Source of the DNA: Thioalkalivibrio sp. ALJ7
GTDB lineage: Bacteria; Pseudomonadota; Gammaproteobacteria; Ectothiorhodospirales; Ectothiorhodospiraceae
Assembly (NCBI RefSeq): GCF_000376865.1
Contig: NZ_AQXQ01000012.1
Span: 62,001 to 126,000 of the forward strand
Reading direction: 5' to 3'
Length of the DNA stretch: 64,000 nucleotides
Position 1 is the stretch's first letter; the number at the start of each line of letters is the position of its first letter. Position numbers and translations under genes: made by a program. Under the pieces are notes generated by a model. The model did no database searches. It was not told where the DNA came from and worked only from the letters and a program-made list of their open reading frames with translations. Shown piece after piece: positions 3,716 through 35,654 of the stretch.

Positions 3716-4137
3716 ACGGACTGGCCGAACTCGCGCATACGCTGGCCCCGGGCCTGCTGTATCCGACTGGCGGTGCCATCCTGTTTGCCATGGGGCTGTA
3801 CGGACTGATCCGACGACATCACCTGGTGCTGCGTATCCTCGCTCTGAACATCATGGGCTCGGGTGTATTCATGGTCCTGCTCGGGGTTGCCGCCCGCGGC
3901 GAGGGCCCGCCCGATCCGGTGGCGCAGGCACTCACGCTGACCGGCATCGTGGTCGCGGTCAGTGCCACCGCCTTCGCCCTGGCCCTAGTCGTACACCTCA
4001 CCCGCCTGACCGGTCATGCGGTCATGCTGCCCGGCCCACCGGACGACGATGCCCCGGTGGAGGACATCTCGCGCGAGGAACACCACGCCGACGGCGGGCC
4101 TGCCGCACCGCACCCGGATCAGGACCGCAACCCGTGA
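3712..4137 (+). CDS. mrpC: Mrp antiporter subunit C (NuoK-like)
   Basis: 141 residues, MnhC/NuoK family. Three membrane helices occupy residues 10-105; the central helix carries LRILALNIMGSGVFMVLLGVAA and the third VAQALTLTGIVVAVSATAFALALV, matching the PxxxALxLTxIVI core of NuoK/MrpC. A polar, acidic and His-rich tail of about 35 residues follows, longer than in most MrpC. Overlaps the next gene through GTGA (4134-4137). It forms part of the antiporter membrane domain related to complex I. Confidence 0.9.
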   Translation: MNGLAELAHTLAPGLLYPTGGAILFAMGLYGLIRRHHLVLRILALNIMGSGVFMVLLGVAARGEGPPDPVAQALTLTGIVVAVSATAFALALVVHLTRLTGHAVMLPGPPDDDAPVEDISREEHHADGGPAAPHPDQDRNP

Positions 4138-7138: not shown

Positions 7139-8850
7139 CGGCCGCGCTGCTCCTCACCGTCCCCTTGCTACCGCTGATGCTAGCGGTACTGATCGGGCTG
7201 CGTCCGGGCCGAACTCGCCTCAACCATCTGGTGCCCTGGGTCGCACTGCCTGGGCTGTTGCTCGCCGCATTCGCGCCGCCCGGTCTCGAGGCCTCGATCG
7301 ATGGCCTGTTGATGGGGACGCAGCTGGCCCTCGACCCGACCGGCCGGGCCTTCCTTGCCCTGACCGCCGGACTGTGGCTGGCCGCCGGCCTGTTCGCGCT
7401 AGGCGATCGCGGCCAGGACCCTCAGCGCCATCGCTTCTACGTGTTCTGGCTGCTGGCCTTGACCGGCAACCTGGGGTTGATCCTTGCGCAGGACGCCCTG
7501 AGCTTTTATCTGTTCTTCGCGCTCATGAGCCTGTCCGCGTACGGGCTCGTCGTACATTCGGGCAAACCCGAGGCCTGGCGGGCCGGACGCATCTATCTGA
7601 TTCTCGCGGTGCTGGGCGAGGTGCTGCTGTTCGCGGGCCTGGTCCTGGCCGTCCATGCGGCCGGGCAATCGGGGCTTGCGGCGGTCGCGGCGGCGCGCCC
7701 CGAAGGCTGGGCACTCGCACTGTTGGTCCTGGGACTCGGAATCAAGGCCGGCATGCTACCCCTGCATTTCTGGCTACCACTGGCTCACCCAGCAGCCCCG
7801 GTGCCCGCCAGCGCGGTACTATCCGGGGCGATGATCAAGGCGGGCCTGCTCGGCTGGATGCGCCTGCTCCCCTTTGACGCCACGGGTCATATGATTCTGG
7901 GCGAGCTCCTGGTCGCACTGGGCCTCACCGCGGCCTTCCTCGGGGCAGTGATCGGCGCACTTCAGGTCCGTCCGAAGACCATCCTGGCCTACTCCAGCAT
8001 CTCGCAGATGGGCCTGATGACAACGGGCATCGGACTGGCCCTGCTGCTGCCGGAAGTCCGTGGCTGGCTGCTGGCCGCGGTCACGCTCTACGCCGTTCAC
8101 CACGGGCTGGCCAAGGGGGCGCTGTTCCTGGCGGCCGGCATGCAGGATCAGCGGCCGACCGGGCCATTGGCCAGCCGTCTGTTCGCGTTGTTCGTCCTGT
8201 TACCGGCCGCGGCCTTGGTCGGTGCCCCTCTGACCAGCGGCGCAGTAGCCAAGAATGTCCTCAAGGGACCACTGGACGCCGAGGCCCTGCCGGGCTGGCT
8301 GGCCCACACGGAGCTGCTGCTGACCCTGGCCGCCACCGCAACCACCCTCGTGCTGCTGCGCTTTCTGTGGCGCTGGCGAGCCGGACTCCAGGCGCCCATC
8401 GAGGGACTCGACCATAGCCGGTGGTGGGCCTGGGGGAGTCTCGCCCTGATGGCGCTGTTGATCCCGATCTGGATCGTCTGGACCGCACCCGGCGCGTTGC
8501 CTGCCGAGGTCCACGATCTGTTTGGATTCAGCCTACTCTGGCCCATCGCCCTCGGGCTCGGACTTGGATGGCTCACCTATCTTTGTGTGCGGGACCGCGC
8601 CACCCCACGCCTGCCGGAAGGCGACCTTGCGATCCTGATGGAGGCCGCCTGGAGGACGGCCCGGCACAAGCGCCGGAGCCTGGCCCTGCCCCCTCCACGG
8701 CCGCGCCGCATTCCGGCACGCCTGCGTGGCATCCGCTTGCTCTGGCGCGCACGCCTGGAGGCCGCCGAACGCGTATTAACCCGCTGGGAGACCATCGGCC
8801 TTTTGTTCGCCAGCGCCCTGCTCGGCCTCTACCTGACCTTGCTGCCGTAG
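7135..8850 (+). CDS. Mrp antiporter-like subunit (third NuoL/M/N homologue, TM5 Glu replaced)
   Basis: 571 residues from a GTG start overlapping the preceding stop (GTGA). It is a NuoL/M/N-family membrane protein with GLGIKAGMLPLHFWLPLAHP (TM7 lysine present) and VRPKTILAYSSISQMG in the discontinuous helix. At the position of the otherwise conserved TM5 glutamate it reads LFFALMSLSAYGL, with Ala instead. The C-terminal 90 residues form an Arg-rich cytoplasmic segment (CRHKRR..., PPPRPRRIP) and one last helix. Last gene of the operon. A third antiporter-like subunit is not part of the canonical seven-gene Mrp; it may be a degenerate or structural channel module. Confidence 0.82.
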   Translation: MTAALLLTVPLLPLMLAVLIGLRPGRTRLNHLVPWVALPGLLLAAFAPPGLEASIDGLLMGTQLALDPTGRAFLALTAGLWLAAGLFALGDRGQDPQRHRFYVFWLLALTGNLGLILAQDALSFYLFFALMSLSAYGLVVHSGKPEAWRAGRIYLILAVLGEVLLFAGLVLAVHAAGQSGLAAVAAARPEGWALALLVLGLGIKAGMLPLHFWLPLAHPAAPVPASAVLSGAMIKAGLLGWMRLLPFDATGHMILGELLVALGLTAAFLGAVIGALQVRPKTILAYSSISQMGLMTTGIGLALLLPEVRGWLLAAVTLYAVHHGLAKGALFLAAGMQDQRPTGPLASRLFALFVLLPAAALVGAPLTSGAVAKNVLKGPLDAEALPGWLAHTELLLTLAATATTLVLLRFLWRWRAGLQAPIEGLDHSRWWAWGSLALMALLIPIWIVWTAPGALPAEVHDLFGFSLLWPIALGLGLGWLTYLCVRDRATPRLPEGDLAILMEAAWRTARHKRRSLALPPPRPRRIPARLRGIRLLWRARLEAAERVLTRWETIGLLFASALLGLYLTLLP

Positions 8851-9967: not shown

Positions 9968-11014
9968 TCAGAACTTCACTCGAACCGGCAGACGATCCAC
10001 TCGCCAAATCTCGGGCAAGGCCTCTTCCGGCTCCACGATCACAGGTACCGCACTCTGACCATCCCCAATGCCCGTTCGCAACTCGGCGGGCAAACGATTC
10101 GCCGCACCGAAGGTGTCCCGCACCACCGCCGCCCGCTGCGTGCGGTCGGGGAGGATGAGCGTCACTTCCCGACCAGGGACGATTCGCCGCTCCAGATGGC
10201 GCGGCTCGATGTACGCCACGATACGCAGCCGGGTGCCGCTGTAACGCAACAAGGGGGTTCCAACGTTCACGAACTGCCCGGGCTCGACGAGCTGCTCCGT
10301 AATCACGCCATCCAGCTCGGCCTCTTTCACCAGCAAGGCCCGCTCTTGCTCAAGCCCAGCCCGTTCGGATTGAAGCTGGGCGTGGCGAATTTGCATGGTA
10401 TCGGGCCAGGTGGCGACAGCATCGACCTCCGGAAGGCTTTGCAACTCGCCTTCTAGCTCGGCCAGGCGCTCTTCGAGCCGCCCCCGCTCGGAGCGAATCG
10501 GTATCCGTTCCCCCTGATTGGCCGACCCCCGTTCAATCAAGCGACCCAGGCGTTCTTCGTGGTCACGAAGGTCGGCCAAATTGACCTCCAGGAGCCCGAT
10601 CCGTCGCTCCAGGTCCGACTGTTGCTCGCGTCTTGAATGCGCCACGCGTTGCCGCAAATCCACGAGATCCACCTCAACCTGCAGCAGTTTGCTGGTCAGT
10701 TCCGGACTCCGCAGCGCCACGACCTGATCACCCTGAGTCACGCGGTCCCAGGGCTCGACTTCGACCGAGTCGACAAACCCCGGGACCCGCGCCAGAAGTT
10801 GGTGCTGCGGATACCAGATCATCGCCGGGACCTCGGTCGATACTTGGTCACTGATCAGCGAGTACAGGAAGTACAGGACCGGACTGGCCACCAGTAGCAG
10901 GATCAGATACCAGCGCAGGCGGAACGCCGCCCGCCGCGCGGGCCCATAGCGAACGCGCAGCCCTGAGTCCTGGCCTGCTCGCCGCCGCTCGTTACCATCA
11001 AAGCGAATCTTCAT
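9968..11014 (-). CDS. HlyD-type membrane fusion protein of the polysaccharide operon
   Basis: 348 residues. A cytoplasmic basic tail of 30 residues precedes one membrane helix (AFRLRWYLILLLVASPVLYFLYSLI). Then a split biotinyl-lipoyl-like domain (YPQHQLLARVPGFVDSVEV... and ELDGVITEQLVEPGQFVNVG) encloses a coiled-coil hairpin of about 120 residues (LRQRVAHSRREQQSDLERR, RGRLEERLAELEGEL), and a beta-barrel domain follows. This is the layout of periplasmic adaptors that join an inner-membrane component to an outer-membrane channel. Its start overlaps the end of the TolC-like gene by 17 bases, so the two are translationally linked. Last gene of the operon. Confidence 0.87.
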   Translation of the reverse strand: MKIRFDGNERRRAGQDSGLRVRYGPARRAAFRLRWYLILLLVASPVLYFLYSLISDQVSTEVPAMIWYPQHQLLARVPGFVDSVEVEPWDRVTQGDQVVALRSPELTSKLLQVEVDLVDLRQRVAHSRREQQSDLERRIGLLEVNLADLRDHEERLGRLIERGSANQGERIPIRSERGRLEERLAELEGELQSLPEVDAVATWPDTMQIRHAQLQSERAGLEQERALLVKEAELDGVITEQLVEPGQFVNVGTPLLRYSGTRLRIVAYIEPRHLERRIVPGREVTLILPDRTQRAAVVRDTFGAANRLPAELRTGIGDGQSAVPVIVEPEEALPEIWRVDRLPVRVKF

Positions 11015-13079
11015 CTGCCCACATGTCCTTCAAATCCGAATAACTCTGGATGGCGATCGGGAGCTGCGACTGACCCAGTGGCTCCAACGCGGCCTGCAAT
11101 CCCTCGCGCATGGCCGACCAGCCGTGCTGGAACCAGCTGTTCTCCGGCGGCAACACCCGCTCCACACTTTGCGCCAGCACCCAGTCCAGTCCCGGTTCGC
11201 GTGCGAGGATGGGCTCCAGGCGATCTCGCAGGCTCGCGGGGCGCGTCACATAGGCCATCAGCGCGATCTCATCCACGCCACGATCGGCGAATTCGCAACT
11301 CAAGCAGCGATCCGCCTGCCCAAAATCCCGTGGATGCGCACTAATGCCCACTCGCCATGGAGAGACTCCGGTTGCGGCAGCGACGGTCGCCAGCCATTCC
11401 TCCAGGAGCCAATCGCGGTCGTGGGTTTCGGTGTCGAGTTGATCAATCTCGATATCCAGGTGCAGATCGCTGAACCCGATATGGGCCAGGTCCCGGATGA
11501 TGTCCAGGAGATCATCGCGGTAGTCCGGCAGCGTCCAGGTGGGCTCGCCCAGAAGAAGGCCGACCTCGACCCCCTTGCCTTCGGCCTCGCCCAGGAATCG
11601 TTCCAGATCGGCCGGGGTCTCTCCGTACCGATCGATCTGGTCACCGTCGAGTGACAACCAGACATGGTCCACGCCGGCTCGTTCCACGATGGGCCAGAAA
11701 TCCGTGTCACGGCCGGTAATGACCGGCTCGCTCTGCCAGACATAAAGGCGTGCCGGCCCGCTAAGTGGGCGTATGGTCTGCACGGGTTCTCCGAGCTGAT
11801 GGCGTGCCTGCGCCTCACGCTCGAGGCTGCGCGGCTGATCCGTTGCCAGCTGATCACATCCAACCTGCGCCAACCAAATCTCCAGGCTGGCATCCAGCCA
11901 GTCTTTGGCGGCGCGGTAGTAGTCCGCGCGGGCGGGCAATACCTCCTCCCACGGTACCGCGAGGGCCTCTTCGGTTCGGTCCTGCGCCACGCGAAGGGAC
12001 CGCGCAGCCCGATCGACCTCGGCCGCCCGGTTCTCTAGCCGGCGCTGGTGAACACTGAGTCGCCGTTCGGCCAGACTCTGGCGCTGCTGGACGGAACCGC
12101 GCGCCTCGGTCTTGAGATGTTCAAGGCGGCGCTGTTCGGCTTGCAGCTCGCGCCGGAGGGGACTATCGCCGCTGAACGATCGCAACGGGATCGACACGGT
12201 CCAAATAAACTCGAGTCCGCCACCCAAGCGGCTCACGTCGTCTTCATAGGTCGACGAATAGCGAAACTGCAGATTGGACTGCAACGCATCAAAGCGTGTC
12301 AGTTCCTCGCGGTCCACGGCGCTTTGCAGCTCCACCTCGACGGCCCTGACCTCGGGCGCCTGGTGGGCCTCCTGGAGCGGACAGGTCGTCCGGTCAGGAT
12401 CGAACCAGGCCGGCACTTGCCGCAAATGGACGGGGCGTCCCAGCAGACTCTCCAGTTCAAGAAGGGCTTCTTCCTCATCGATCGCGGCCTGATCAGCATC
12501 CATGCGCGCGGTGTCGAGTGTTTGCTGCAAACGTCCGATCTCGTCCTCACGCATCAACTGCTGATCGCGGCGTTCCCTCAGGGCGCTCTCGAGGTCTGCC
12601 TCCACCGACTGCAGCGCACGGCTAAGCGCCTGAACACGGCGGGCATGCCAAACTCGGGCATAGGCCTCGGCGATATCGCGGCGGATCTCTTGGAGCTGTT
12701 CCCGATAGCGGTATTCGGCCGCCCCCGCCTCCCCTTGCGCCTGCAGGAATGCCCGCCGCTGCTCCTCGTCGCTACCCAGCAAGGGGCGTTGCACCCCAAC
12801 CGATGCGCTCGTGCCGGTGTAACGGCGGTTAATACCCGCGGCGACAGGCTCTTCGAAACGCCCCGCACCTGCGCTGCCGAACAGCTCCCAGCCGTGGCTT
12901 TCATACTGGCGATCTTGTTGTGCCCGCAAACGATCGGCCTCGGCCTGTTCCGCCAACAACGAGGGCGAATATACGGCGTCCTCCAAGAGCTCCGGCAAGC
13001 GATCCCCGGCGCCCACGCTTCCACCCAGGGCAACCCCCAACAGACAGCACAAACCCATGGAAAGCATTCGTAGCGTCAT
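10998..13079 (-). CDS. TolC-like outer-membrane protein fused to a GH18-like TIM-barrel domain
   Basis: 693 residues with a signal peptide (MLSMGLCCLLGVALGGSVGAG). Residues about 30-425 resemble an outer-membrane efflux protein: repeated long coiled coils (EIRRDIAEAYARVWHARRVQ, EEEALLELESLLGR) and a second repeat half. Residues about 445-690 form a different domain that looks like a TIM-barrel glycosidase: FSDLHLDIE with a D-x-E pair at the position of the GH18 catalytic motif, ISAHPRD, and ALMAYVTRP like the GH18 M-x-Y strand. Fusion of an export channel with a putative glycan hydrolase is unusual. The neighbours (glycosyltransferase, HlyD adaptor) indicate polysaccharide export. Confidence 0.78.
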   Translation of the reverse strand: MTLRMLSMGLCCLLGVALGGSVGAGDRLPELLEDAVYSPSLLAEQAEADRLRAQQDRQYESHGWELFGSAGAGRFEEPVAAGINRRYTGTSASVGVQRPLLGSDEEQRRAFLQAQGEAGAAEYRYREQLQEIRRDIAEAYARVWHARRVQALSRALQSVEADLESALRERRDQQLMREDEIGRLQQTLDTARMDADQAAIDEEEALLELESLLGRPVHLRQVPAWFDPDRTTCPLQEAHQAPEVRAVEVELQSAVDREELTRFDALQSNLQFRYSSTYEDDVSRLGGGLEFIWTVSIPLRSFSGDSPLRRELQAEQRRLEHLKTEARGSVQQRQSLAERRLSVHQRRLENRAAEVDRAARSLRVAQDRTEEALAVPWEEVLPARADYYRAAKDWLDASLEIWLAQVGCDQLATDQPRSLEREAQARHQLGEPVQTIRPLSGPARLYVWQSEPVITGRDTDFWPIVERAGVDHVWLSLDGDQIDRYGETPADLERFLGEAEGKGVEVGLLLGEPTWTLPDYRDDLLDIIRDLAHIGFSDLHLDIEIDQLDTETHDRDWLLEEWLATVAAATGVSPWRVGISAHPRDFGQADRCLSCEFADRGVDEIALMAYVTRPASLRDRLEPILAREPGLDWVLAQSVERVLPPENSWFQHGWSAMREGLQAALEPLGQSQLPIAIQSYSDLKDMWADEDSL

Positions 13080-13080
13080 A

Positions 13081-14418
13081 TCAGCGCTTGCCCTTGCGGA
13101 GCACCCACCAGGGGGCCATGGAGGATTCCTGATTCGAGTGGCGCCACCACTCGTTGATGATGGCCACCAGTGACCAGATCCGCATGATCATCGCGAAGAA
13201 GGGGAAGATCGGGATGAGCCAAGCCAGGCGCGCGTCGCGGCTGCGACGTTCCGAGATAAACACGAGGGCTGTGATGTACATCAGGAAGGTCAGTACCGCG
13301 TACAAACCCATGATGATCGTAAAGGTGGCCACGACAACCGCAGGCGCCACCGCGATGACCAGCCACAACGTGTACATCACGATCAGGACGGGCATAACCA
13401 TCTGAAACAGCATGCCGTACCACACCCCCAGCAGAACATTCCAAAAGCCCATCTGCCGCACCGAAAACGCCGATCGGTGCTTGCGCATGTACATATAAAA
13501 AAGATCCCCGTCCCAGCGCAGACGCTGCATCAGGAAGCCCTTCCAGGTTTCAGGACAATCGGTGTGCCCTATGGCTCGGGGCTCAAACACGATACGAAAC
13601 CCCGGGTAGCGGCCGAAGTACTGCTTGAGCCTCAGGGTAAGGTCGAGGTCCTCCGCCGACCCGGTCGTCCAGCCCCCGATCTTGCGCACCATTTCGGTCC
13701 GAAACACACCGAACGCACCGGAGATGTTGTTCACCCCGTGCAACTCTCCCAGCCCCACCTTGGCCAGGTGAATCGTGATCATATATTCGAGCGACTGGAA
13801 CCGAGTCAACAGGTTGCGCCGCCAGTTCCGCACTCGCAGTGAACCCGCCACGGCAATCACGTTGGGGTCGCGGAAATGCCCGGCGACCTCGGTCACCATG
13901 GTGTTATCGAATGAGGTATCCGCATCCAGCGCCAGCAAGATCTCACCCCGCGCCATGGCCAATCCTGCATTGAGGGATGAAACCCGCCCGCCTCGAGGCG
14001 TCTTGGGCACAACCACCAGACGCCGACTGGCGTACTGTTCAACCTCGGGCATCATCTCGCGCAAGGCGCGCAACGTACTCGGATTCTGGTCCGCCCCGTC
14101 CACTACCGCGATGATCTCGATCTGTCCCGGATACATCTGTTCCATAAGGGATCGCACCGTCCCCTTGACCGCATCGCCCTCGGAGTAGCAAGTCACAACG
14201 CAGGTCACTCTCGGGGTGAAGGGGTATTGCGTGGGAACGGCATAGATCCGGCGCGTGTAGTAGCGCAGCACACCCAGCCAGATCATCAGGTTGAGAGGAA
14301 GCTCGAGAAACAGCACAAACGGGATAAACATGTACGCCAGTGCCAGCGCATCCGTCTCGTAGAACAGCCCGCCGAGGATAGTGGCCACCTCGGCGAAAAA
14401 TTCGAGGATTGCCGTCAT
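13081..14418 (-). CDS. Membrane family 2 glycosyltransferase (polysaccharide synthase)
   Basis: 445 residues. One or two N-terminal helices, then a processive GT2 domain: CVVTCYSEGD, VVDGAD, the metal-binding LLALDADTSFD (D-x-D), TGSAEDLDL (acceptor-site acidic motif) and QRLRWDGD (the Q/RxxRW motif of cellulose, chitin and hyaluronan synthases). At least four C-terminal helices follow. All catalytic motifs are intact, so an active processive synthase is expected; the sugar cannot be told. Its start overlaps the stop of the TackOD1 gene (ATGA), and it ends one base before the TolC-like gene, so it is in one operon with both. Confidence 0.9.
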   Translation of the reverse strand: MTAILEFFAEVATILGGLFYETDALALAYMFIPFVLFLELPLNLMIWLGVLRYYTRRIYAVPTQYPFTPRVTCVVTCYSEGDAVKGTVRSLMEQMYPGQIEIIAVVDGADQNPSTLRALREMMPEVEQYASRRLVVVPKTPRGGRVSSLNAGLAMARGEILLALDADTSFDNTMVTEVAGHFRDPNVIAVAGSLRVRNWRRNLLTRFQSLEYMITIHLAKVGLGELHGVNNISGAFGVFRTEMVRKIGGWTTGSAEDLDLTLRLKQYFGRYPGFRIVFEPRAIGHTDCPETWKGFLMQRLRWDGDLFYMYMRKHRSAFSVRQMGFWNVLLGVWYGMLFQMVMPVLIVMYTLWLVIAVAPAVVVATFTIIMGLYAVLTFLMYITALVFISERRSRDARLAWLIPIFPFFAMIMRIWSLVAIINEWWRHSNQESSMAPWWVLRKGKR

Positions 14419-15848
14419 TGCGAGAGGGAGACCATCCGGGCCATCACGGCCGCTGCGTTTTCTGCCTCGCTCATGCCGAACGAAGACTCGTGATACACCC
14501 GCCCCAGCCGATCAAGTTCGGTCCCTTCGACACTGTCCTCCATCAACTGGGCCAAACGGCCGGCCAGCACATCCACCCCATCCGCGGAGGTCTGCGGCAG
14601 CAAGAGCCAGATCCGGTCATCGGCGGTACGAGTGACCAGATCCGTGGTGCGCACCAGTGCCTTGACGCGCTCGGCAAACGCATCCACCAGCGCGGCCCCC
14701 CGGCTATGCCCCAAGGTGTCGATCACACGCGCCAGGCCATTGAGGTGCAACAGAATCAGGCCAAAGCGCATCTCATCGTGGCGTTGACGCAGCTTCAGGA
14801 GCCAATCACAGGAAAACTCGAAATGCTCCGGCGTAACGTAGTTGATCTCATCGAAGACCCCATAGAGATCGCCAATATCACCGGTACGCGCCAGCAGACG
14901 CCCGGCTTCGGACAGGCGGTAGCGGTAAATCCCAAACGCCTCAAGTTCATTCGGGTCATGCGCCTGTCCGCAGGCCATGCACCGAGCCAGCACCCGCCCA
15001 TCCATGAACATATGCTGGCAGCTGCCGCAGACATGGTTTTCCAGCGGACGGTCGTAATCCTCGCCAATGTGGCGCAACACCGCCGAACAGTTCGGACAGC
15101 TCAGCATGCCGTTGTCCTGGAACAGCCGTTGCGGCCCGACATGCCCGCAACTGAAGCAATGCAACCCCGGCTCGGTCCGGATATCCAGGGAGTCACACTC
15201 CGGACACACATCGACAAAACTGAGGTGTCCGTGGCGACACCCCGGACACAGGCGCACCCGGTCGACAAGGTCCTGTCCCTCGATCAGCCGTCGATGCTTC
15301 AACCCGCGCAGCCAGAACTCGGTCGTGTCTTCCTCCAGCAGCGCATCCAGTAACGGATAACGATAAAGTTCCGGCGCCGACCAATCCCGCAGCGGCTGCA
15401 GACTCAGCGAAGGGTGACTCCACAACAACGACAGCAGGACTTGGTCCTGGCTCCGCATCGGCTGTCCACCGTTCGCCGTCGCCAGGCGCGCGGCACAGCT
15501 TTCGATCCGCTCGCGCGGGTTGTCCACCGTCCGAAACTCCCCGTCGGTCAGGGCTTTAATCTCCGGGCCCGCATCCCCCTCGGTCCAGATCAATCGCAAC
15601 TGCCAAACTGGATGGCGGCGAAGCGCCCGTACCAATTCCAGCGCACCCGACAGCGAATCCAGATCCACCACAAAGGCCAACGTGGCTTGTTCCAGGACCT
15701 CTTCCAACCCCTCGGAGTGGAGTTCCTCAAGCGAGGCAAACTGATCCGTTGGCAGAGTCGCACCGAGCGCGTCGGAGAATCCCGGACGTCGGGAAAAGGT
15801 TACGACCCGAGAGGCGCCTTCTATGTCACGTTCCTGTTGCTTCGCCAT
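14415..15848 (-). CDS. TackOD1 zinc-ribbon protein with degenerate GGDEF domain
   Basis: 477 residues. An N-terminal receiver-like region (about 1-120) is followed by a cysteine-rich segment: RLCPGCRHGH, DVCPECDS, LHCFSCGHVG, LSCPNCSAVL, HVCGSCQHMF, ARCMACGQ, i.e. several CxxC pairs typical of the TackOD1 output domain. Residues about 350-477 are GGDEF-like (FGLILLHLNGLARVIDTLGHSRGAALV) but the signature loop reads RTADDRI instead of RGGDEF, so diguanylate cyclase activity is very unlikely. It is the first gene of the polysaccharide operon and probably senses or relays a signal, perhaps c-di-GMP, to the synthase. Role inferred. Confidence 0.82.
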   Translation of the reverse strand: MAKQQERDIEGASRVVTFSRRPGFSDALGATLPTDQFASLEELHSEGLEEVLEQATLAFVVDLDSLSGALELVRALRRHPVWQLRLIWTEGDAGPEIKALTDGEFRTVDNPRERIESCAARLATANGGQPMRSQDQVLLSLLWSHPSLSLQPLRDWSAPELYRYPLLDALLEEDTTEFWLRGLKHRRLIEGQDLVDRVRLCPGCRHGHLSFVDVCPECDSLDIRTEPGLHCFSCGHVGPQRLFQDNGMLSCPNCSAVLRHIGEDYDRPLENHVCGSCQHMFMDGRVLARCMACGQAHDPNELEAFGIYRYRLSEAGRLLARTGDIGDLYGVFDEINYVTPEHFEFSCDWLLKLRQRHDEMRFGLILLHLNGLARVIDTLGHSRGAALVDAFAERVKALVRTTDLVTRTADDRIWLLLPQTSADGVDVLAGRLAQLMEDSVEGTELDRLGRVYHESSFGMSEAENAAAVMARMVSLSQ

Positions 15849-15961: not shown

Positions 15962-16141
15962 TATTAACGGTACAAGTGCGCGATTGCTTGGCCCGCACCC
16001 AGCAGTCCCTTGCAAGGCGGCCACCCGCATCCGCCGGCGGGGAGTGAAGGCATCCTCCGGGGTGCGCTACTAGTGAACTGCGCTGGCACGCGGCGAAGGC
16101 TCCCAAGCCGCCCCACCCAAATCGAGTTTTTCAGGAACACC

Positions 16142-16264
16142 ATGGCGCAGCACATCTTCACCATGAACGGCGTAGGCAAGATCGTCCCGCCGAAGAAATA
16201 CATCCTCAAGGACATCAACCTGAACTTCTTCCCGGGCGCCAAGATCGACGTGCTGGGTTACAAC
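16142..16264 (+). pseudogene. Truncated 5' copy of ettA
   Basis: The first 123 bases of an ettA gene, 116 of 123 identical by eye to the intact copy at 20129-20251, including the start codon and most of the ribosome-binding stretch (CAGGA...C.CATGGCG). Similarity ends at the codon for Asn just before the Walker A glycine-lysine, after which the frame runs into the 3' flank of the fluoride-channel gene. Two of the seven differences change amino acids (Tyr to His, Gly to Asp). It cannot make a functional ATPase. It marks a duplication or insertion boundary. Confidence 0.85.
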
Positions 16265-16286
16265 GCGGCCGGCACCGCCGCGACGT

Positions 16287-16703
16287 TCAACCCTGCGCCG
16301 CCGCGGCGTTCAGGCGCCGTCCCATGCGGCTGCCCAGCCACACCCCGACAATCCACAACACCAGGGAGACGGCGCCATAGAGCGCCGCACGCGCCGGATC
16401 CCCGGTCTGCACCAGCCACAGGCTCTCCAGGCTGAACACCGAGAAGGTCGTAAAGCCGCCGCAAACCCCCGCCAGCATGAAATGACGAAACACCGGGTCG
16501 GCCGGGCGGCAGCCGCCCGGCGCGCTGATCACCGCATACAGCCCAATCAGCCACGATCCGGCCACGTTCACGGCCAGCGTGTCCCACGGAAAGCCGGTAC
16601 CGGCCAGGTGCAACCCGGTCCAGGAGACGCCGTAGCGCGCCATGCTGCCGAGCGCGGCCCCCAGCGCCACGAACAGCGAGAGACGCAGCGAATACCCGGT
16701 CAC
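16287..16703 (-). CDS. crcB: Fluoride channel subunit CrcB/Fluc (second of pair)
   Basis: 138 residues with four predicted helices. The Fluc signature is clear: GAALGSMARYGVS in the first helix, FPWDTLAVNVAGSWLIGL in the second (conserved Asn), and GVCGGFTTFSVFSLESL in the third, which carries the phenylalanine box and the central Na+ site. Fluc proteins export fluoride as antiparallel dimers. The gene overlaps its neighbour crcB by four bases, so the two are probably a heterodimer with fixed opposite topologies. No fluoride riboswitch was recognised upstream of the pair. Confidence 0.92.
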   Translation of the reverse strand: MTGYSLRLSLFVALGAALGSMARYGVSWTGLHLAGTGFPWDTLAVNVAGSWLIGLYAVISAPGGCRPADPVFRHFMLAGVCGGFTTFSVFSLESLWLVQTGDPARAALYGAVSLVLWIVGVWLGSRMGRRLNAAAAQG

Positions 16704-20128: not shown

Positions 20129-21796
<1,668 letters not shown>

Positions 21797-21925: not shown

Positions 21926-21994
21926 CTAGGTGTGGAGTCTCACAAGGTTGTCCTCAGGTAGACCGAGGATAACCTTGTGAGACTCCACACCTAG
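21926..21994. repeat. 30-bp near-perfect inverted repeat
   Basis: Arms 21926-21955 and 21965-21994 match at 29 of 30 positions with a 9-base loop. The right arm contains the stop codon (TAG) of the minus-strand outer-membrane gene, and the left arm lies in the spacer after ettA. It has no T tract, so it is not a classical terminator. It could protect the 3' end of the carboxysome-operon message, or be a mobile-element relic or a protein-binding site. Confidence 0.85.
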
Positions 21995-22647
21995 TCGAAG
22001 CTGACCGAGAGGAACACACCCACCACGCCAGGCACATCCCAGCCGGACGTGCGCAATGGCGGAATGGCAAAACCGGTGACGCCCACCCCTCGGTAGTCGA
22101 TCGTCAGGGCCGGCATCACCAAGGGTGTCCACTGGGTTTCGCGCGACCAGTCATCGACTCGCGCCGTACGGCCGAATTGCGTGACGTTCTCGGCGCGCCA
22201 AGCCGTTTGCCGATAATGCGCACCGACCACGCCGTCCAGTCGTACCCGGAAGTTTTCGCGCCGATACGCCCCCACTTCAAAAGTGACGGCCCCCAGCGGA
22301 CCACGATAGCCAAGCGAGTCGCGCATCACCCCTCCCGCAAGGCCCCATCGACTGTCGCTGAGTCGATAGCCCGCAACGAACGACTCGTGACGTTCATTCC
22401 ACCCGCAACGGCCCGTCGGGCATCGCCCCGAGCCATCCTCCCAACGTGACGTCCCGGCCGGAAGACCGTTCACTGCGGGTGACGTGCCGCCTTCGTGGGC
22501 CGACCAGCCCCCCAACAAGAATTGCCATTCACCCGCAGCGGCCCCAGACGGAAAGGCCAACCAAACGGTTAGGAACACAATCAGCCAGGTGTCTCGCCAA
22601 CCGCATGACCGGACCAACAGGCCCAGCGAGTTCCGGGCGACGTGCAT
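21991..22647 (-). CDS. Predicted outer-membrane or periplasmic beta-barrel protein
   Basis: 218 residues from the ATG at 22645-22647, only two bases after the stop of the NTF2-like gene. A hydrophobic N-terminal segment (DTWLIVFLTVWLAFPSGAAAG) predicts export. The rest is rich in Gly, Trp, Tyr and alternating strands: GEWQFLLGGWSAHEGG, ESFVAGYRLSDSRWGLAGGVMRDSLGYRG, and a C-terminus ending in VGVFLSVSFD. This suggests a small eight-stranded barrel, but I do not recognise a specific family; PagL- or PagP-like lipid A enzymes were considered without finding their catalytic motifs. Last gene in the carboxysome direction of transcription. Confidence 0.6.
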   Translation of the reverse strand: MHVARNSLGLLVRSCGWRDTWLIVFLTVWLAFPSGAAAGEWQFLLGGWSAHEGGTSPAVNGLPAGTSRWEDGSGRCPTGRCGWNERHESFVAGYRLSDSRWGLAGGVMRDSLGYRGPLGAVTFEVGAYRRENFRVRLDGVVGAHYRQTAWRAENVTQFGRTARVDDWSRETQWTPLVMPALTIDYRGVGVTGFAIPPLRTSGWDVPGVVGVFLSVSFD

Positions 22648-22649
22648 GG

Positions 22650-23216
22650 CTACGCAGTCGGCATCATCGAAGAGTGGTGATGCACGATCTTCCACTCCCC
22701 GTCTCGGTTCTCGTAGACGAAGGTGTAGCGTGCGGGGACCTCTTTGGTCTCGCCGCCATCGGTGACGCGGAAAGTATAGGTGCCGGCATCGGTCAGCTTG
22801 TTGCAGCCCAGCTTCACGTTGCGGGTATTGATCGTGCCAAAGGGCTTTTTCTCCAGGAAGTGTTCGAAGTAATCCTGGATTTCGGCATGACTGGTCCGAG
22901 GAACATTGGACACCGTCGGCAACAAGACCGCGTCTTCCGCATAGCGCTCGGCTACCTTATGCGCATCACCGGTCTGAAGGGCATCATTCCACCCTTCGAA
23001 AAGCTCTTCAGCCAGGCGGCGGGTGGCCGGAGCACAGACCACGCAGCTTTCGTTGGCCGGAGTGTCGATCGCCCCGAACCCTGGATCACCGCCGGTGCCG
23101 GTCACCGGGTGGTGTTGGTCGCGGTGGGAGGCGCTCAGGCTCAGGCGCGAACGGGGCGCCTCATCGGCGCTGATAAACTGGGTACCGCTGATCCGCGGCC
23201 GGGTGCTCGTGCTCAC
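22650..23216 (-). CDS. SgcJ/CaMKII-AD NTF2-like protein with CsoS2-like N-terminal motifs
   Basis: 188 residues. Residues about 65-188 form an NTF2-like domain of the SgcJ/EcaC or CaMKII-association type (LAEELFEGWNDALQTGDA, VAERYAEDAVLLPT, HHHSSMM end). The N-terminal 65 residues are polar and probably disordered, and carry ISGT (9-12), VTGT (38-41, followed by GGDPGFG) and CVVC (58-61). CsoS2 encoded 10 kb upstream uses repeated V/ISGT, VTGT and spaced Cys motifs to contact the shell. This protein may therefore be carboxysome cargo; that is inference. It lies after cbbR with a 121-base gap. Confidence 0.8.
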   Translation of the reverse strand: MSTSTRPRISGTQFISADEAPRSRLSLSASHRDQHHPVTGTGGDPGFGAIDTPANESCVVCAPATRRLAEELFEGWNDALQTGDAHKVAERYAEDAVLLPTVSNVPRTSHAEIQDYFEHFLEKKPFGTINTRNVKLGCNKLTDAGTYTFRVTDGGETKEVPARYTFVYENRDGEWKIVHHHSSMMPTA

Positions 23217-23337: not shown

Positions 23338-24372
23338 TCAGCTCGCTTGCGCCTTGAAGGCCGCCAGCAGGTCCTCGACCTGCCCACGCACACGGGCCTC
23401 GTCCTGAATGGCAAAGTCGAGGAAGGTCTGTGCAACCACCGACAATACCTTCTGCTTGGGGTGGACAATGTGCCACTGGCGATGGATCGGGAAATGCTCC
23501 ACATCCAGCAGCGCGACCGGTCCACCCGCACCCTCGGCACTGAGGGTATGCAACGACAGCACCGCGATCCCCAGCCCGCCAATCACCGCCTGCTTGATGG
23601 CCTCGTTAGACCCGAGCTCCATGCGCACGGTCGGATTGATGCCGTGCTCCTGAAACAGTTTCAGGGTCGCCTCGCGGATGCCGGAGCCGGGCTCACGCAT
23701 CAGGAAGGTCTCCTGCTCCAGTCGCTCGATCGGGATGTTGCGCTGTCCAACAAGGGGATGATCGCGGCTGGCCATCACGACCAACGGGTTCGGGGCAAAC
23801 GGGTACACCGCGATATCGGTCAGCCGCTCCGGCACATGGCCGATGATGTAGAGGTCGTCATCGTTGCTGGCCAGGCGATGCAACACCCGGTCGAAGTTGC
23901 TGACCTCCAGTGACAGCTCGATGTCCGGATAGCGCTTCGCGAACTGCCCGAGAATGGTTGGGGCAAAGTACTGCGCGGTGGTAATCACCGCCAGGCGAAG
24001 GCGCCCTCGCTTCAGGCCGTGCATCTCCGCCAGCTTCATCTCGAGGTTGGTCAGCGCGCCCAACATCTCACGGCAGGTGTCATACAGCAGAAGCCCGACC
24101 TCGGTTGGGAAGGCCTTGCGCCCGACATACTCGAACAGCGGCAGCCCCAGGGCCCCGGAGAGTTTCTTGATCTGGATGGAGACCGTCGGCTGGGTCAGGT
24201 AGAGCTCTTCCGCCGCGCGCGTGAAGCTGCCCAGGCGCACAATCGCCTCGAACACCTGCAACTGGCGCAAAGTGGCATGCCGGATCAAATGGGCCGGCAG
24301 CTCGGACTTCAGCATCACTTGGGGAAGGCTGGGATCCTTCGGCTCGGTCGTGCTGGTCCCTTTCCTGGCCAT
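23338..24372 (-). CDS. cbbR: CbbR-type LysR transcriptional regulator
   Basis: 344 residues with an N-terminal extension of about 25 residues ahead of the LysR helix-turn-helix (LRQLQVFEAIVRLGSFTRAAEELYLTQPTVSIQIKKLSGALG). The effector domain includes LRLAVITTAQYFAPTILGQF and REPGSGIREATLKLF, which are characteristic of CbbR. CbbR activates Calvin-cycle operons in response to metabolites such as RuBP or PGA. Unusually, it is on the same strand and directly behind cbbO (16-base gap), not divergent from cbbL, so it may be expressed within the operon it controls or from a local promoter. Confidence 0.92.
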   Translation of the reverse strand: MARKGTSTTEPKDPSLPQVMLKSELPAHLIRHATLRQLQVFEAIVRLGSFTRAAEELYLTQPTVSIQIKKLSGALGLPLFEYVGRKAFPTEVGLLLYDTCREMLGALTNLEMKLAEMHGLKRGRLRLAVITTAQYFAPTILGQFAKRYPDIELSLEVSNFDRVLHRLASNDDDLYIIGHVPERLTDIAVYPFAPNPLVVMASRDHPLVGQRNIPIERLEQETFLMREPGSGIREATLKLFQEHGINPTVRMELGSNEAIKQAVIGGLGIAVLSLHTLSAEGAGGPVALLDVEHFPIHRQWHIVHPKQKVLSVVAQTFLDFAIQDEARVRGQVEDLLAAFKAQAS

Positions 24373-31076: not shown

Positions 31077-32621
31077 TCAGGCGACCAGCGGTTCCAGACG
31101 GCTGCCGCTGCGCTTGTCGCGAATGACCATGTGGCAGCCAATCAGGCCCTTCTCTGCCAGGTCTCGGTAGCGCTCCATGATCGTTCTGCGGATCCGGCGA
31201 CACCGTGCCTCGACCCGCTCCCGCGATCCCGGCACCTTGCGGTCGTAGCGGTAATGAATCACCACCGGCACCGGCAGGCCACGTTCAACATTCAACTTCC
31301 GAAAAATCTTGTTCACCCCGACATCGATCCCATCGGAGCCTTCTTCCATCGTCTCCAGGTGTGCGAAGTACGCGAAGTTCCGTACCTGCATCTCCTCGAT
31401 CTCCTGACCGACGATGATCACGCGCTCCCGATGGCCGACATCGGCGTAGTGGCCTCCGTGGTAACGCGCCACATACTCAAGCTGCGAGATATTGTTCAGC
31501 AGCAACCGCGAGATCAATCGCAGCATCCCTTCATGAGGCGCCCCATTCCCGCGTCCCCAGCCTTGCTGGTGGATCGCATCCTGGATTGCCTGATACACCC
31601 GCAGGGAGGCCGATTGCTCGTCCAGACCCTGCGTTTCCCGATAAAGCGCCGCACTATCCACAAACCGATACAGGCTCATGCGCGTGTCGCCATCGGGGAT
31701 ATGGATCTTCACCGCATCCGTATCCGTATCCACGCCAATCAGCAGCGTGTCGACCGAGGCCCCACAGCAGTAGGTGTTCTCGATCGCCTGACGGAAGGCC
31801 CGCAACTGGTGCAACGCACCATCCGCCGCATCGCGTTCGCTATTGCCATGTGCCGCACACCCCTGGTGCAGCGGATCGGCGCCACTGTAGTGGTACGCCG
31901 CAATCTTCAGGTACCGACTCGGCACGTCCGCCGTGGTCGGGCGCCCCTCGCGGAAGCGCAGCAACTCGCGCTTGGTCCAGTGCCGCACATCTTCCTCGAT
32001 GTCGAACTGCGCACCCGCATAACTCTTCACTCGGACCGCCAAGTCCGGCAGCCGCAGGATAAAACGCCGCAACCCCAGCAGCCGACCATCGGAACAGGGC
32101 GAGATGTCCACCTCGTGGAAGTCACAGTCGAGGAAATACGCAATGGCGCTTTCCGCTTCCGCGACCAGATCATCGCGTCCGGCCCAGTATTCGTTGACCA
32201 CCTGATCGAACAGCTCGAACGTGCCATGCAGGTACAGTTCGCGCGTGTCCAGATCATTGATCCAGGCATCTTCCAGCGCCTTCTCCGGCAACTGGTAGCC
32301 CAACCGATCGAGCACAATCCGTTGCGCCCGCTCCTGAAAATCGCGCTCGTGCTGCAGCGCATGCACTTCCTTCAACACCGGGACCAACTGGGCGAAGCGC
32401 TCACGAAAGCCCTGCTCGAACGCATGCAGGCGATCGTTCATCGCGGCGTCCGCCAGCGGATGCCCCGGGCGCAATTCACCGACCGCTTCGGTTCGCGGCA
32501 CCGACGGCGCGGGTACCGGGGCCACCGGACCCGGCTCCGTCACCGTCGACCGGGCCGCACCCACCCTTGGCTTCACAAAGCGTGAGCCAAACGGGCTGTT
32601 CTTGCGGCGACCGCGCACCAT
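31077..32621 (-). CDS. csoSCA: Carboxysomal carbonic anhydrase CsoSCA
   Basis: 514 residues from the ATG at 32619-32621; a TTG seven codons earlier is less likely. Domain order of the epsilon/beta-type CsoSCA: a disordered basic N-terminus (RGRRKNSPFGSRFVKP) that in this family binds Rubisco, a helical domain (about 60-140), the catalytic domain and a symmetric C-terminal domain without active site. Zn-site candidates are the Cys in DISPCSDGR with its Asp/Arg dyad, and His and Cys in HQGCAAHGN. It dehydrates bicarbonate to CO2 inside the carboxysome. 24 bases after csoS2. Confidence 0.94.
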   Translation of the reverse strand: MVRGRRKNSPFGSRFVKPRVGAARSTVTEPGPVAPVPAPSVPRTEAVGELRPGHPLADAAMNDRLHAFEQGFRERFAQLVPVLKEVHALQHERDFQERAQRIVLDRLGYQLPEKALEDAWINDLDTRELYLHGTFELFDQVVNEYWAGRDDLVAEAESAIAYFLDCDFHEVDISPCSDGRLLGLRRFILRLPDLAVRVKSYAGAQFDIEEDVRHWTKRELLRFREGRPTTADVPSRYLKIAAYHYSGADPLHQGCAAHGNSERDAADGALHQLRAFRQAIENTYCCGASVDTLLIGVDTDTDAVKIHIPDGDTRMSLYRFVDSAALYRETQGLDEQSASLRVYQAIQDAIHQQGWGRGNGAPHEGMLRLISRLLLNNISQLEYVARYHGGHYADVGHRERVIIVGQEIEEMQVRNFAYFAHLETMEEGSDGIDVGVNKIFRKLNVERGLPVPVVIHYRYDRKVPGSRERVEARCRRIRRTIMERYRDLAEKGLIGCHMVIRDKRSGSRLEPLVA

Positions 32622-32645
32622 GGCTTCCGGGGACCTGTGCAACCC

Positions 32646-35600
32646 TTAACCGCGTGCCCCACCGGACAGCGTCACCAGAGAACCGGCATCGCTGTTCCCG
32701 GAGGAACCCGTGATCTTGCTCGCGGGCACGTCCTTGCGCTCCAGCTCCCGGTTGACGTAGGCACTACGGCCCTCGCCCCGCGGGTTCCCTTTCTGTGTGG
32801 CGTTGCGGCGGGTCGACATCCCCTCGGTACCGGTCACCCGGTCGCCGCGACCCCAATCATCGCCGGTAATGGAAATACCATTGCTGCTGCCATTCACCGT
32901 CACACGATCGGCGCCGATCTTCTGGCCCTCGTCCACCGGGGCCGAGGCCACCTGCTGCTGGCCCCCGCTGTAGCGGAATTCTTCGGTGCCAGACACCAGG
33001 CCCATCGCTTTGTTGATCGAGCCCGTCAGACGGCCGCTCGTGCCATAGGCGGTGCCCGTCACGCGTTCACGGCGTTCGGCCGCTGTGCGCGCAGGTGTCT
33101 CCACGCTAAAGCCTGCGTTCGGCATCGGTCGCGCTGCGGCCGGCGCCGGGGCGGCTGCTCGGGCCGGGGCCCCCTGCATCCCTTCCGGGCGCAGACGCGG
33201 ATGCAGATTGCCAGCCACGTTGGCGCAGGTCTGGGCAAACTCGTTGGCGCCCACATACGGGGCCCCGGAGACGTCCTGGCAGGCGCCGCGTTCGGTGCCG
33301 GTCACACGCTCGTCGTAGCCCGGCTGACTCCCGGAGACCGCGTGCCCTGGCGTCGACTGACGGTCGGCCACGCGCACCTCGGCGGCCTGCGAATCCTGGG
33401 TCTCGCAGAACTGGTCATACTGGTCGGGTCCGATATAGGCGGTCCCGCTCACGGGCTTGCAGGCACCATACTCATCGCCCGTTACCCGAGCCGAACGGCC
33501 CACGGCGGTCCCGGAGACCGACTGCTGGTTCCAGGTGCGGCCGACCGTAACCTTTTCCGGCGCCGCATCCGGGCGTTGACCGCCACAGAACGCATCGTAA
33601 TGCTCGGAGCCCGCGTATTCGGTTCCGGTTATCGGCTTACAGCCGCCGTACTCGTCACCGGTCACGTGGATGGAATGATCCACCTGCGTACCCGATACCT
33701 CGCGACCCCGCAACGTGTGCATCACCCCGACCTTCGGCACACCACCCGCGGCGGGCTGGTCACACAGATCGCCAAAGTCCGCCTTGTTGTAGTACGGCGT
33801 CCCGGTGAGCGACTTGCAGGAACCGCTCTCGTTGCCGGTCACCTTGGAGCTGCGGCCAACGGCCACGCCCGTCACGGTCTGGTCTTCCATGGTGTGCGAC
33901 TCCTGGACCTTGGCCGGCGTCGGCTCCGGGCGGGTACCACAGAAGCCCTGGAACTGTTCCGTACCGAGATATTCGGTGCCGGTGACCGGCTTGCAGCTGC
34001 CGTACTCGTCACCGGTGACATGCACGGAGCGCCCGACTTCGGTTCCGGTCAGTTCACGACCGCGAAGCGTGTGCATGACGCCAACCTTCAGCGGCGCTCC
34101 GTTCGACTTTCCCGAATTGCAGGGCACCTCGCTCGCGGCCGTATTCAGGTACTCGGTACCGGTTACGTCGCGGCAGGAGCCCGATTCATCACCGGTCACC
34201 TTCGGGCTGCGCCCCACTGAGGTCCCGGAAACACCCTCACCGTGACGGGTGACCATCACGCTAGTGCGGGCCGGGCCGGCCTCCGGGCGGGTGCCACAAA
34301 AGCCTTCATACTGTTCAGTGCTGAGGTACTCGGTACCCGTAATCGTCTCGCACGAACCCCGCTCGTCGCCGGTCACGCGCGAGGAACGGCCGACTTCGGT
34401 GCCACTCACGGACTGACCGTGGGCGGTGTGCGAGGCACCCACCTTCGGCGGGTTGCCGGAGGGGCGAACACCGCAGTACCGCTCGTAGTGTTCCAGGCCC
34501 AGATACTCGGTCCCGGTGATCGAAGAGCAGCTACCGGCTTCGGTACCCGTGACGCTGGAGGTCCGTTCAACCTGGGTGCCACTCACATGGCTACCCGCCA
34601 GGGTCGTCCCTTCTTCCACCTTGGGCGGCGCATCACCTTCAATGGGGCGCGGCCGACCACAGGGCCGCCCCGGCTCCGAAGAACCTCGGCCCAGCTTGCA
34701 AAGCTCTTCACGACGCTGGCGAGCCACCTCCCGGGTGGACATGCCCTTACGCTTTGCCGCCTTCCAGGCACCTTCCTGCGGCAACGTGCCGCGGGCTTGA
34801 CCGCCCTTGAAGCGACGGCGCAGGGCCTGCTTGCCGTTCTGCGCCATCGCGTCGCGGCGCGCCATGCAGATCGCTCGGACTTCGGAAATCATCGGGTGCG
34901 GGCCAGCGGCTTCGCCCCCGGACTCGACCTTGTCGCAGAGCTGATCCAGCCCGCTCTCGACCACAGTCTCTTCGCGAGTCGGGGTAGCATCAGCCGATGC
35001 ACCCTTCTCGCCCTTGCAACCGCAGCCGCAATCCTTCTTGGACGATTCGCTCGTGGCGGCGACCGGTTCCGATCCCTTAAGCCGATCTTCACGGCGCGGC
35101 TCGGGCGCCACGGCCTTCTTGCCATCGGTCGACAACGCCTGGCGCCGCAGACGGCAGATCTCGCGACCGCTCATGTTCGAGCAATCGACTTCCACGTTCT
35201 GCGACTGGGCCAGCGCTTCCAGCTGGCGCGAACGGTCTGCACCGGCTCGCGCCATACCGCCGGAAACCTGGGCACGGGTATTGGTACGGCCAACGGCCTT
35301 CTTGCCCTGGCGCGCCATTTTCTGGCGACGCTCAAGGGCGGCCTGGCGACCGTTGGAGGCCCCCGCGTGCGCGCCTGGCTCAGGACGCCGTTCGGGGCTG
35401 GCATCGCGGGTCTCGAAGGAGACCTGCGACGAGGATTCACTGGAGGGCATTTCCGGCTCCCGCGCCTGGGGTGCCGGAGCAGAGGCCGATTTCGCCTGGC
35501 GCGCGTCATGCGCAGCCGAGGACGAGCGGGCGCTCGCCTTGTTTTGGCCGGTCGATTTCACGGCAGCCTTGCCATTGTGAGACATGGCCTTGCGCCGTTC

Positions 35601-35654
35601 CCGAGCGAGTTCACGACCCGAGAGACCTTCAGACGCAGATGTCGGATTACTCAT
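32646..35654 (-). CDS. csoS2: Carboxysome scaffold CsoS2
   Basis: 1002 residues, largely disordered, long for the family. N-region (1-350): five Rubisco-binding repeats of the type SGRELARERRKAMSHNGK, at about 13, 102, 162, 258 and 307. M-region (355-810): eight repeats built as V/ISGTxVGRS, VTGDExGSC, I/VTGTEY and a late Cys; the eighth is divergent (AVSGSQPGYDER). C-region (811-1002) contains ITGDDWGRGDRVTGTEG and the conserved end ITGSSGNSDAGSLVTLSGGARG-type tail that anchors to the shell. CsoS2 links Rubisco to CsoS1. I could not identify the programmed frameshift site that yields the short form in some species. Confidence 0.96.
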   Translation of the reverse strand: MSNPTSASEGLSGRELARERRKAMSHNGKAAVKSTGQNKASARSSSAAHDARQAKSASAPAPQAREPEMPSSESSSQVSFETRDASPERRPEPGAHAGASNGRQAALERRQKMARQGKKAVGRTNTRAQVSGGMARAGADRSRQLEALAQSQNVEVDCSNMSGREICRLRRQALSTDGKKAVAPEPRREDRLKGSEPVAATSESSKKDCGCGCKGEKGASADATPTREETVVESGLDQLCDKVESGGEAAGPHPMISEVRAICMARRDAMAQNGKQALRRRFKGGQARGTLPQEGAWKAAKRKGMSTREVARQRREELCKLGRGSSEPGRPCGRPRPIEGDAPPKVEEGTTLAGSHVSGTQVERTSSVTGTEAGSCSSITGTEYLGLEHYERYCGVRPSGNPPKVGASHTAHGQSVSGTEVGRSSRVTGDERGSCETITGTEYLSTEQYEGFCGTRPEAGPARTSVMVTRHGEGVSGTSVGRSPKVTGDESGSCRDVTGTEYLNTAASEVPCNSGKSNGAPLKVGVMHTLRGRELTGTEVGRSVHVTGDEYGSCKPVTGTEYLGTEQFQGFCGTRPEPTPAKVQESHTMEDQTVTGVAVGRSSKVTGNESGSCKSLTGTPYYNKADFGDLCDQPAAGGVPKVGVMHTLRGREVSGTQVDHSIHVTGDEYGGCKPITGTEYAGSEHYDAFCGGQRPDAAPEKVTVGRTWNQQSVSGTAVGRSARVTGDEYGACKPVSGTAYIGPDQYDQFCETQDSQAAEVRVADRQSTPGHAVSGSQPGYDERVTGTERGACQDVSGAPYVGANEFAQTCANVAGNLHPRLRPEGMQGAPARAAAPAPAAARPMPNAGFSVETPARTAAERRERVTGTAYGTSGRLTGSINKAMGLVSGTEEFRYSGGQQQVASAPVDEGQKIGADRVTVNGSSNGISITGDDWGRGDRVTGTEGMSTRRNATQKGNPRGEGRSAYVNRELERKDVPASKITGSSGNSDAGSLVTLSGGARG

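Follow-up and report, generated by a model that had tools for sequence, protein, structure and literature searches.

The gene and its surroundings

The window, meaning the whole stretch of 64,000 nucleotides of Thioalkalivibrio sp. ALJ7 that was analysed, contains a full cso locus whose genes lie in order on one strand. It begins with cbbL, cbbS, csoS2, csoSCA, two csoS4 genes, three csoS1 genes, and a bacterioferritin-like gene. These are followed by acRAF, parA, a McdB-like gene, cbbQ, cbbO, cbbR, and, at the end of the locus, a gene for an iota-carbonic anhydrase (iota-CA), about 120 bases from cbbR. The iota-CA reading frame (22650-23216, minus strand) starts with GTG and has GGAG some eight bases upstream. 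The following features are considered here.

22650..23216 (-): iota-CA gene, tailed, 188 aa, placed behind cbbR at the end of the cso locus
23022..23216 (-): tail, residues 1-65, predicted to be disordered (AlphaFold2 pLDDT, hydropathy), no signal peptide
23181..23192 (-): motif 1, ISGT, residues 9-12, of the [VI][ST]G shell-binding triplet type
23094..23105 (-): motif 2, VTGT, residues 38-41 (VTGTGG is 38-43), of the [VI][ST]G type
23034..23045 (-): CVVC, residues 58-61, in which only C61 is invariant; C61 and C138 both belong to the enzyme domain
22659..23021 (-): CaMKII_AD/SgcJ-type iota-CA domain, residues 66-186 (Pfam, NCBIfam, 3H51, AlphaFold2)
22668..22682 (-): HHHSS, the iota-CA signature, residues 179-183, invariant in 22 orthologues
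23338..24372 (-): cbbR, LysR regulator, directly upstream of the iota-CA gene on the same strand
31077..32642 (-): csoSCA, intact, beta-class carboxysomal carbonic anhydrase, PF08936 match in this genome (G000)
32646..35654 (-): csoS2, with 25 [VI][ST]G[TNDS] motifs

The iota-CA gene follows cbbR of the cso operon in all 12 of the fetched Thioalkalivibrio loci, and cbbR was found to be its conserved neighbour in L002-L012, L014, and L071. The genome codes for both CsoSCA and the iota-CA. Its csoSCA is intact, and the iota-CA comes in addition to it.

Several other reading frames are present in the window. A 234-aa ORF (21991-22695, minus strand) shares about 45 bases with the 3' end of the iota-CA gene and has a hydrophobic segment near its start. 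It has no matches in Pfam or NCBIfam, and among the fetched relatives a similar ORF was found at the same place only in L009 (62%). The ORF at 16010-16435 (+) contains residues nearly identical to those at the start of the ABC-F gene product encoded at 20129-21796 (+), QHIFTMNGVGKIVPPKKYILKDINLNFFPGAKI..., and it appears that a 5' fragment of this gene was duplicated about 4 kb away. A role in anti-phage defence was rejected, as PADLOC gave no matches.

Enzyme family

By its sequence, the protein belongs to the iota-carbonic anhydrase family (SgcJ/EcaC, CaMKII_AD, HHHSS). It matches PF08332 (CaMKII_AD) in Pfam with an E value of 2.2e-22 and 80 bits (cut-off 22.1), and TIGR02246 (SgcJ/EcaC) in NCBIfam with an E value of 4.7e-19 and 68.6 bits (cut-off 33.95). 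The closest solved relative is 3H51 from Xanthomonas campestris (E 1.3e-45; Foldseek rank 1, 55% identity in the structural alignment), which has been classed as an iota-CA (PMC8425729). An (H)HHSS motif near the C-terminus is the signature of iota-CAs, and a bacterial “SgcJ/EcaC oxidoreductase” with an HHHSS-type motif has been proven to be a carbonic anhydrase (PMC8425729). The HHHSS end of the present protein aligns with HHSS of the iota-CA structure 7C5X. T101, Y116, and S183, candidate counterparts of the catalytic residues T106, Y124, and S199 of AspCA, are invariant in 19 homologues, including tail-less ones; the alignment with 7C5X covered the HHSS end only. Metal-free iota-CAs may be poor in the dehydration direction (PMC8425729). 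The first-pass annotation had described an NTF2/CaMKII-AD-like protein. The fold was correct, but the protein is a recognisable iota-carbonic anhydrase rather than an anonymous NTF2 protein.

The N-terminal tail and its motifs

The ISGT, VTGTGG, and CVVC motifs that had been noticed in a disordered N-terminus are indeed there. The AlphaFold2 pLDDT is mostly below 50 for residues 1-44 and 52-57, with the exception of residue 10, and rises above 90 in the NTF2-type domain that starts at about residue 61. No helix is predicted for the tail in this model. The hydropathy of the tail is 0.11, compared with 1.8-2.5 in six tail-less homologues.

The background for the motifs was taken from 312 predicted proteins on about 410 kb of this genome (the window and 18 further stretches). 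Among these, [VI][ST]GT occurs at a rate of 8.2e-5 per residue. Two [VI][ST]GT motifs within 70 residues were found in the iota-CA alone, CsoS2 itself having been dropped by the codon-composition filter.

The shell-binding triplet of CsoS2 has the degeneracy (V/I)(T/S)G, CsoS2 repeats have 8 residues between triplets, and VTG mutants of CsoS2 lose shell binding (PMC11365436). The [IV]TG triplet contacts CsoS1A around His79 (PMC10484944), and each of the three CsoS1 proteins encoded in the window has the equivalent histidine (His80/81). The likeness of the tail to CsoS2 goes only as far as the triplets. There are 24-26 residues between the two triplets of iota-CA tails, the tyrosine and the cysteine pairs of the CsoS2 repeats are absent, and the CsoS2 profile PF12288 (CsoS2_M) gives no match to the iota-CA protein at E values up to 1. 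Profiles of 74 M-repeats and 15 C-terminal peptides of CsoS2 were also compared with the tails. In several cases the tails score above full shuffles. With the triplets held fixed in the shuffles or permutations, neither profile gives a significant result (63/300 for the C-terminal peptide, 300/300 for the M-repeat). The tail as a true CsoS2 M-repeat was therefore rejected, since its score is not above triplet-keeping shuffles. A copy of the CsoS2 C-terminal peptide (ITGSSGN...VTxSGGAR) was likewise rejected on the 63/300 result, although L054 and L055 are suggestive by eye.

The cysteines do not extend the likeness. CVVC as a whole is not conserved across orthologues. C61 accompanies the cysteine of GCNK in some tail-less homologues, and both are absent together in others. 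C61 is thus a feature of the domain and not CsoS2 mimicry, and the cysteines were rejected as a CsoS2-like element. Of the CsoS2 repeat pattern that had been proposed for this N-terminus, the triplets stand and the cysteines do not. The tail is best called a motif mimic and not a CsoS2 repeat.

Conservation and descent of the tail

A scan of genome contigs gave 31 relatives. The tail is present in 21 of these, and all 21 show [IV][ST]G[TS] close to the N-terminus, followed some 25 residues on by another V/I-S/T-G. In close relatives that lack the tail, such as those of Pseudomonas and Hyphomicrobium, the protein mostly begins with a hydrophobic stretch resembling a signal peptide. When 19 diverse tails were aligned, the first motif was found in all 19. 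At the second place, 14 tails have a true [VI][ST]G triplet, and another three carry a VSG upstream of it. In L055, L070, L106, L111, and L117 the second triplet has degenerated or disappeared. V/I and S/T exchange freely and G is constant, while the remainder of the tail has diverged. Outside the triplets, S26, R32, and D51 are invariant or nearly so.

The tail and its motif are kept near cso loci and even when the gene lies away from them, as in L013, L015-L017, L077/L078, G285, and G133 (about 80 kb). This retention amid diverging surroundings and at a distance from the cso locus speaks for function. In a domain-only tree the tailed enzymes form a single clade, in which 45 tailed rows are set apart by a branch with support of 99/98, which suggests that the tail probably arose once.

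In two cso loci without csoSCA, the iota-CA has no such tail but an FKBP_C domain (PF00254) at its N-terminus (L118 in G404 and L119 in G385). These genes are at L123:5202-5924(-) and L124:14877-15569(+), the L124 copy lying between cbbO and cbbR. In the tree, the FKBP-fused enzymes are placed beside tail-less ones and not in the tailed clade, and they were thus probably recruited to the carboxysome independently and in a different way. The tail is then not the only solution, which limits any claim that a triplet tail is generally required. In L123, a stretch with acRAF, csoS1, and csoS4B is present twice around the FKBP-iota-CA gene (3213-4439 and 10937-12308), and cbbQ is split into two frames.

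Distribution of the tail, csoS2, and csoSCA

The tail follows csoS2 across genomes. In the genomes behind the first loci, csoS2 (PF12288) was found in 10 of 11 with a tailed enzyme and in 0 of 5 with a tail-less one. A class sample of 369 genomes gave 9/10 and 0/14, respectively (Fisher 8e-6, kinship ignored). The sole tailed genome of this sample that shows no csoS2 is G074, a MAG with a completeness of 84%. The Thiomicrospira-like genome G069 belongs to a family in which csoS2 is present in 23 of 23 tailed genomes, again with kinship ignored, and none of the 15 genomes of this family without csoS2 has an iota-CA match.

Four csoS2 genomes of the class sample have no CsoSCA (PF08936), namely G059, G200, G069, and G133. 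The coordinates place csoS2 near a contig end in G059 and G200, so csoSCA may simply be missing from these assemblies. G069 and G133 each have a tailed iota-CA. In the sample of the G069 family, an iota-CA is present in 10/10 csoS2 genomes without CsoSCA as opposed to 15/37 with CsoSCA. When G133 is added, all 11 cso genomes that lack csoSCA in an uninterrupted locus have an iota-CA. In G133, csoS2 is directly followed by csoS4A (L075:9008-12131(+)), and the tailed iota-CA gene is about 80 kb off on the same contig (L074:5881-6420(-)). Going by the tail, this enzyme is the predicted carboxysomal carbonic anhydrase of that genome's cso locus.

These genomes agree with reports on Thiomicrospira. 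According to PMC12628692 and PMC12646314, both of which cite Wieschollek et al. 2024 (PMC11409652), the iota-CA of Thiomicrospira is carboxysomal and takes the place of CsoSCA; PMC13159521 likewise cites that study. A degraded csoSCA between csoS2 and csoS4A has been described in Thiomicrospira (PMC9164163). The cso loci of Nitrosospira multiformis and of Actinobacteria are also said to be without csoSCA (PMC9164163). L071 has a 258-aa ORF at this place (14022-14798(-)), which is probably a degraded csoSCA of the same kind. L071, the Thiomicrospira-like locus, which holds tailed enzymes with L054 among them, appears from the locus itself to be from a Thiomicrospira. Wieschollek et al. (2024) themselves reportedly describe a carboxysomal iota-CA in Thiomicrospira. 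Two iota-CA genes are present near the cbbR end of one cso locus in G069 (L071:5340-5879(-) and 7276-7824(-)), and the same was found in G435 and G442. The second copy evolves fast; ITGT is retained in it, but the second triplet is gone.

Proposed role in the carboxysome

The comparisons above establish the family, the motifs, the predicted disorder, the conservation, the linkage, the co-occurrence with csoS2, and the replacement of csoSCA in other lineages. The tail appears to fit the pattern of a cargo tag, with a short conserved motif in the disordered terminus of an enzyme that tracks the shell genes. It is probable that this cytoplasmic iota-CA serves the alpha-carboxysome as a second carbonic anhydrase in addition to CsoSCA, and that its disordered tail is a cargo address that acts through shell-binding triplets. 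We infer that the tail binds the shell, that the enzyme is located in the carboxysomes of this organism, and that it dehydrates bicarbonate there.

The folded NTF2-type domain would be the catalyst and the disordered N-terminal tail of about 65 residues the address. The [IV][ST]GT triplets would bind the inner face of the shell at CsoS1 hexamers, in the groove around His79, as the [IV]TG of CsoS2 does. A presumed dimer would offer four triplets and could bind weakly and multivalently. Together with CsoSCA, the enzyme would then provide Rubisco with CO2, perhaps under the high-pH conditions in which these organisms live. The first-pass annotation had already suggested recruitment by a CsoS2-like code. 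That suggestion is partly supported. Orthologues near cso operons without the motifs would have spoken against it, but the orthologues near these loci, and even distant ones, have the motif, and the tail tracks csoS2. The cysteines are no part of the mimicry. Counting against the proposal are the restriction of the CsoS2 likeness to the triplets, the partial loss of the second triplet, the different spacing, G074, which shows a tail with no csoS2, the two FKBP-fused enzymes L118 and L119, and the possibly poor dehydration by metal-free iota-CAs (PMC8425729).

The enzyme could also be carboxysomal with a tail that binds Rubisco or CsoS2, the triplets being incidental or secondary. CsoSCA binds Rubisco through a disordered N-terminal peptide (PMC12646314), and the conserved S26, R32, and D51 are left unexplained by the triplet model. 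However, the most constrained stretch of the tail is the triplet motif, in which V/I and S/T are exchanged exactly as in CsoS2. In CsoS2-N, the elements that bind Rubisco form helices with many Arg/Lys residues, whereas no helix is predicted for this tail. A tail of this kind is considered rather unlikely.

The iota-CA could instead work free in the cytosol, as an enzyme or regulator expressed along with the cso operon, with a tail for oligomer packing, redox control, or the like. This would fit a genome in which CsoSCA is already present and a second carboxysomal carbonic anhydrase is not strictly needed. It is improbable in view of the tight co-occurrence with csoS2 and the replacement of csoSCA, and it is at odds with the carboxysomal location reported for Thiomicrospira. 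In CO2-concentrating mechanisms, a free cytosolic carbonic anhydrase would also short-circuit the accumulation of bicarbonate. The motifs could even be without function, a coincidence that common descent has preserved in a single lineage. The tailed enzymes do form one clade in which the motif probably arose once, and ISGT does occur by chance, as in a 320-aa protein of this genome (L082 17891-18853). Such a coincidence is very hard to reconcile with a first triplet kept in 19/19 tails and a second in 14/19 while the remaining tail diverged, or with a pair of motifs that is unique among 312 proteins, and it is given little credence.

Beyond this genome, [VI][ST]G(T) could be a general address for alpha-carboxysome cargo. 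The tail would have been gained once, after which the iota-CA would have joined CsoSCA and, in at least two lineages, replaced it, with the FKBP lineage taking a separate route. The chances for and against this wider scheme are regarded as even.

The idea of an unrecognised cargo, put forward in the first-pass annotation, is only partly true because an iota-CA is reported as carboxysomal in Thiomicrospira (PMC12628692, PMC12646314). In the literature searched, which did not cover Wieschollek 2024, no name or description of the iota-CA tail was found. Within that literature the CsoS2-like address tail appears to be new, and no explanation was found for the route of the iota-CA into the alpha-carboxysome. 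A conserved tail that reuses the CsoS2 triplet is a directly testable mechanism for this entry. If true, nature would have a cargo tag besides CsoS2, one that would be useful for shell engineering. The tail would also predict carboxysomal iota-CAs even where the gene is far from the cso locus, as in G133 with its cso locus without csoSCA. A further question is why a pair of carboxysomal carbonic anhydrases has been retained in Thioalkalivibrio, Guyparkeria, and other lineages.

Comparison with known systems

In both CsoS2 (PF12288) and the tail, [VI][ST]G(T) triplets sit in a disordered region; the two also share the locus and presumably the CsoS1 groove. They differ in that the tail has no domain match to CsoS2, another spacing, and no tyrosine or cysteine pair, and in that it is attached to a folded enzyme. 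CsoSCA (PF08936) shares with the iota-CA a disordered N-terminus and a cargo role, which is putative for the iota-CA. Its fold is unrelated, and it is recruited through contacts with Rubisco and the shell (PMC12646314), not through VTG triplets.

The XcaCA-type SgcJ/EcaC protein (3H51) and other tail-less iota-CAs have the same catalytic domain with (H)HHSS. They do not possess the tail, many close homologues have a signal peptide instead, and csoS2 was found in none of the 14 genomes sampled. The iota-CA of Thiomicrospira is of the same class and, if L054/L071 is a Thiomicrospira, of the same clade, with its gene beside cbbR in the cso locus. L054 has this tail too, with ITGT and ITGS as its motifs. 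Thiomicrospira has lost csoSCA, for which the iota-CA stands in, whereas in the Thioalkalivibrio studied here csoSCA is intact and the two coexist.
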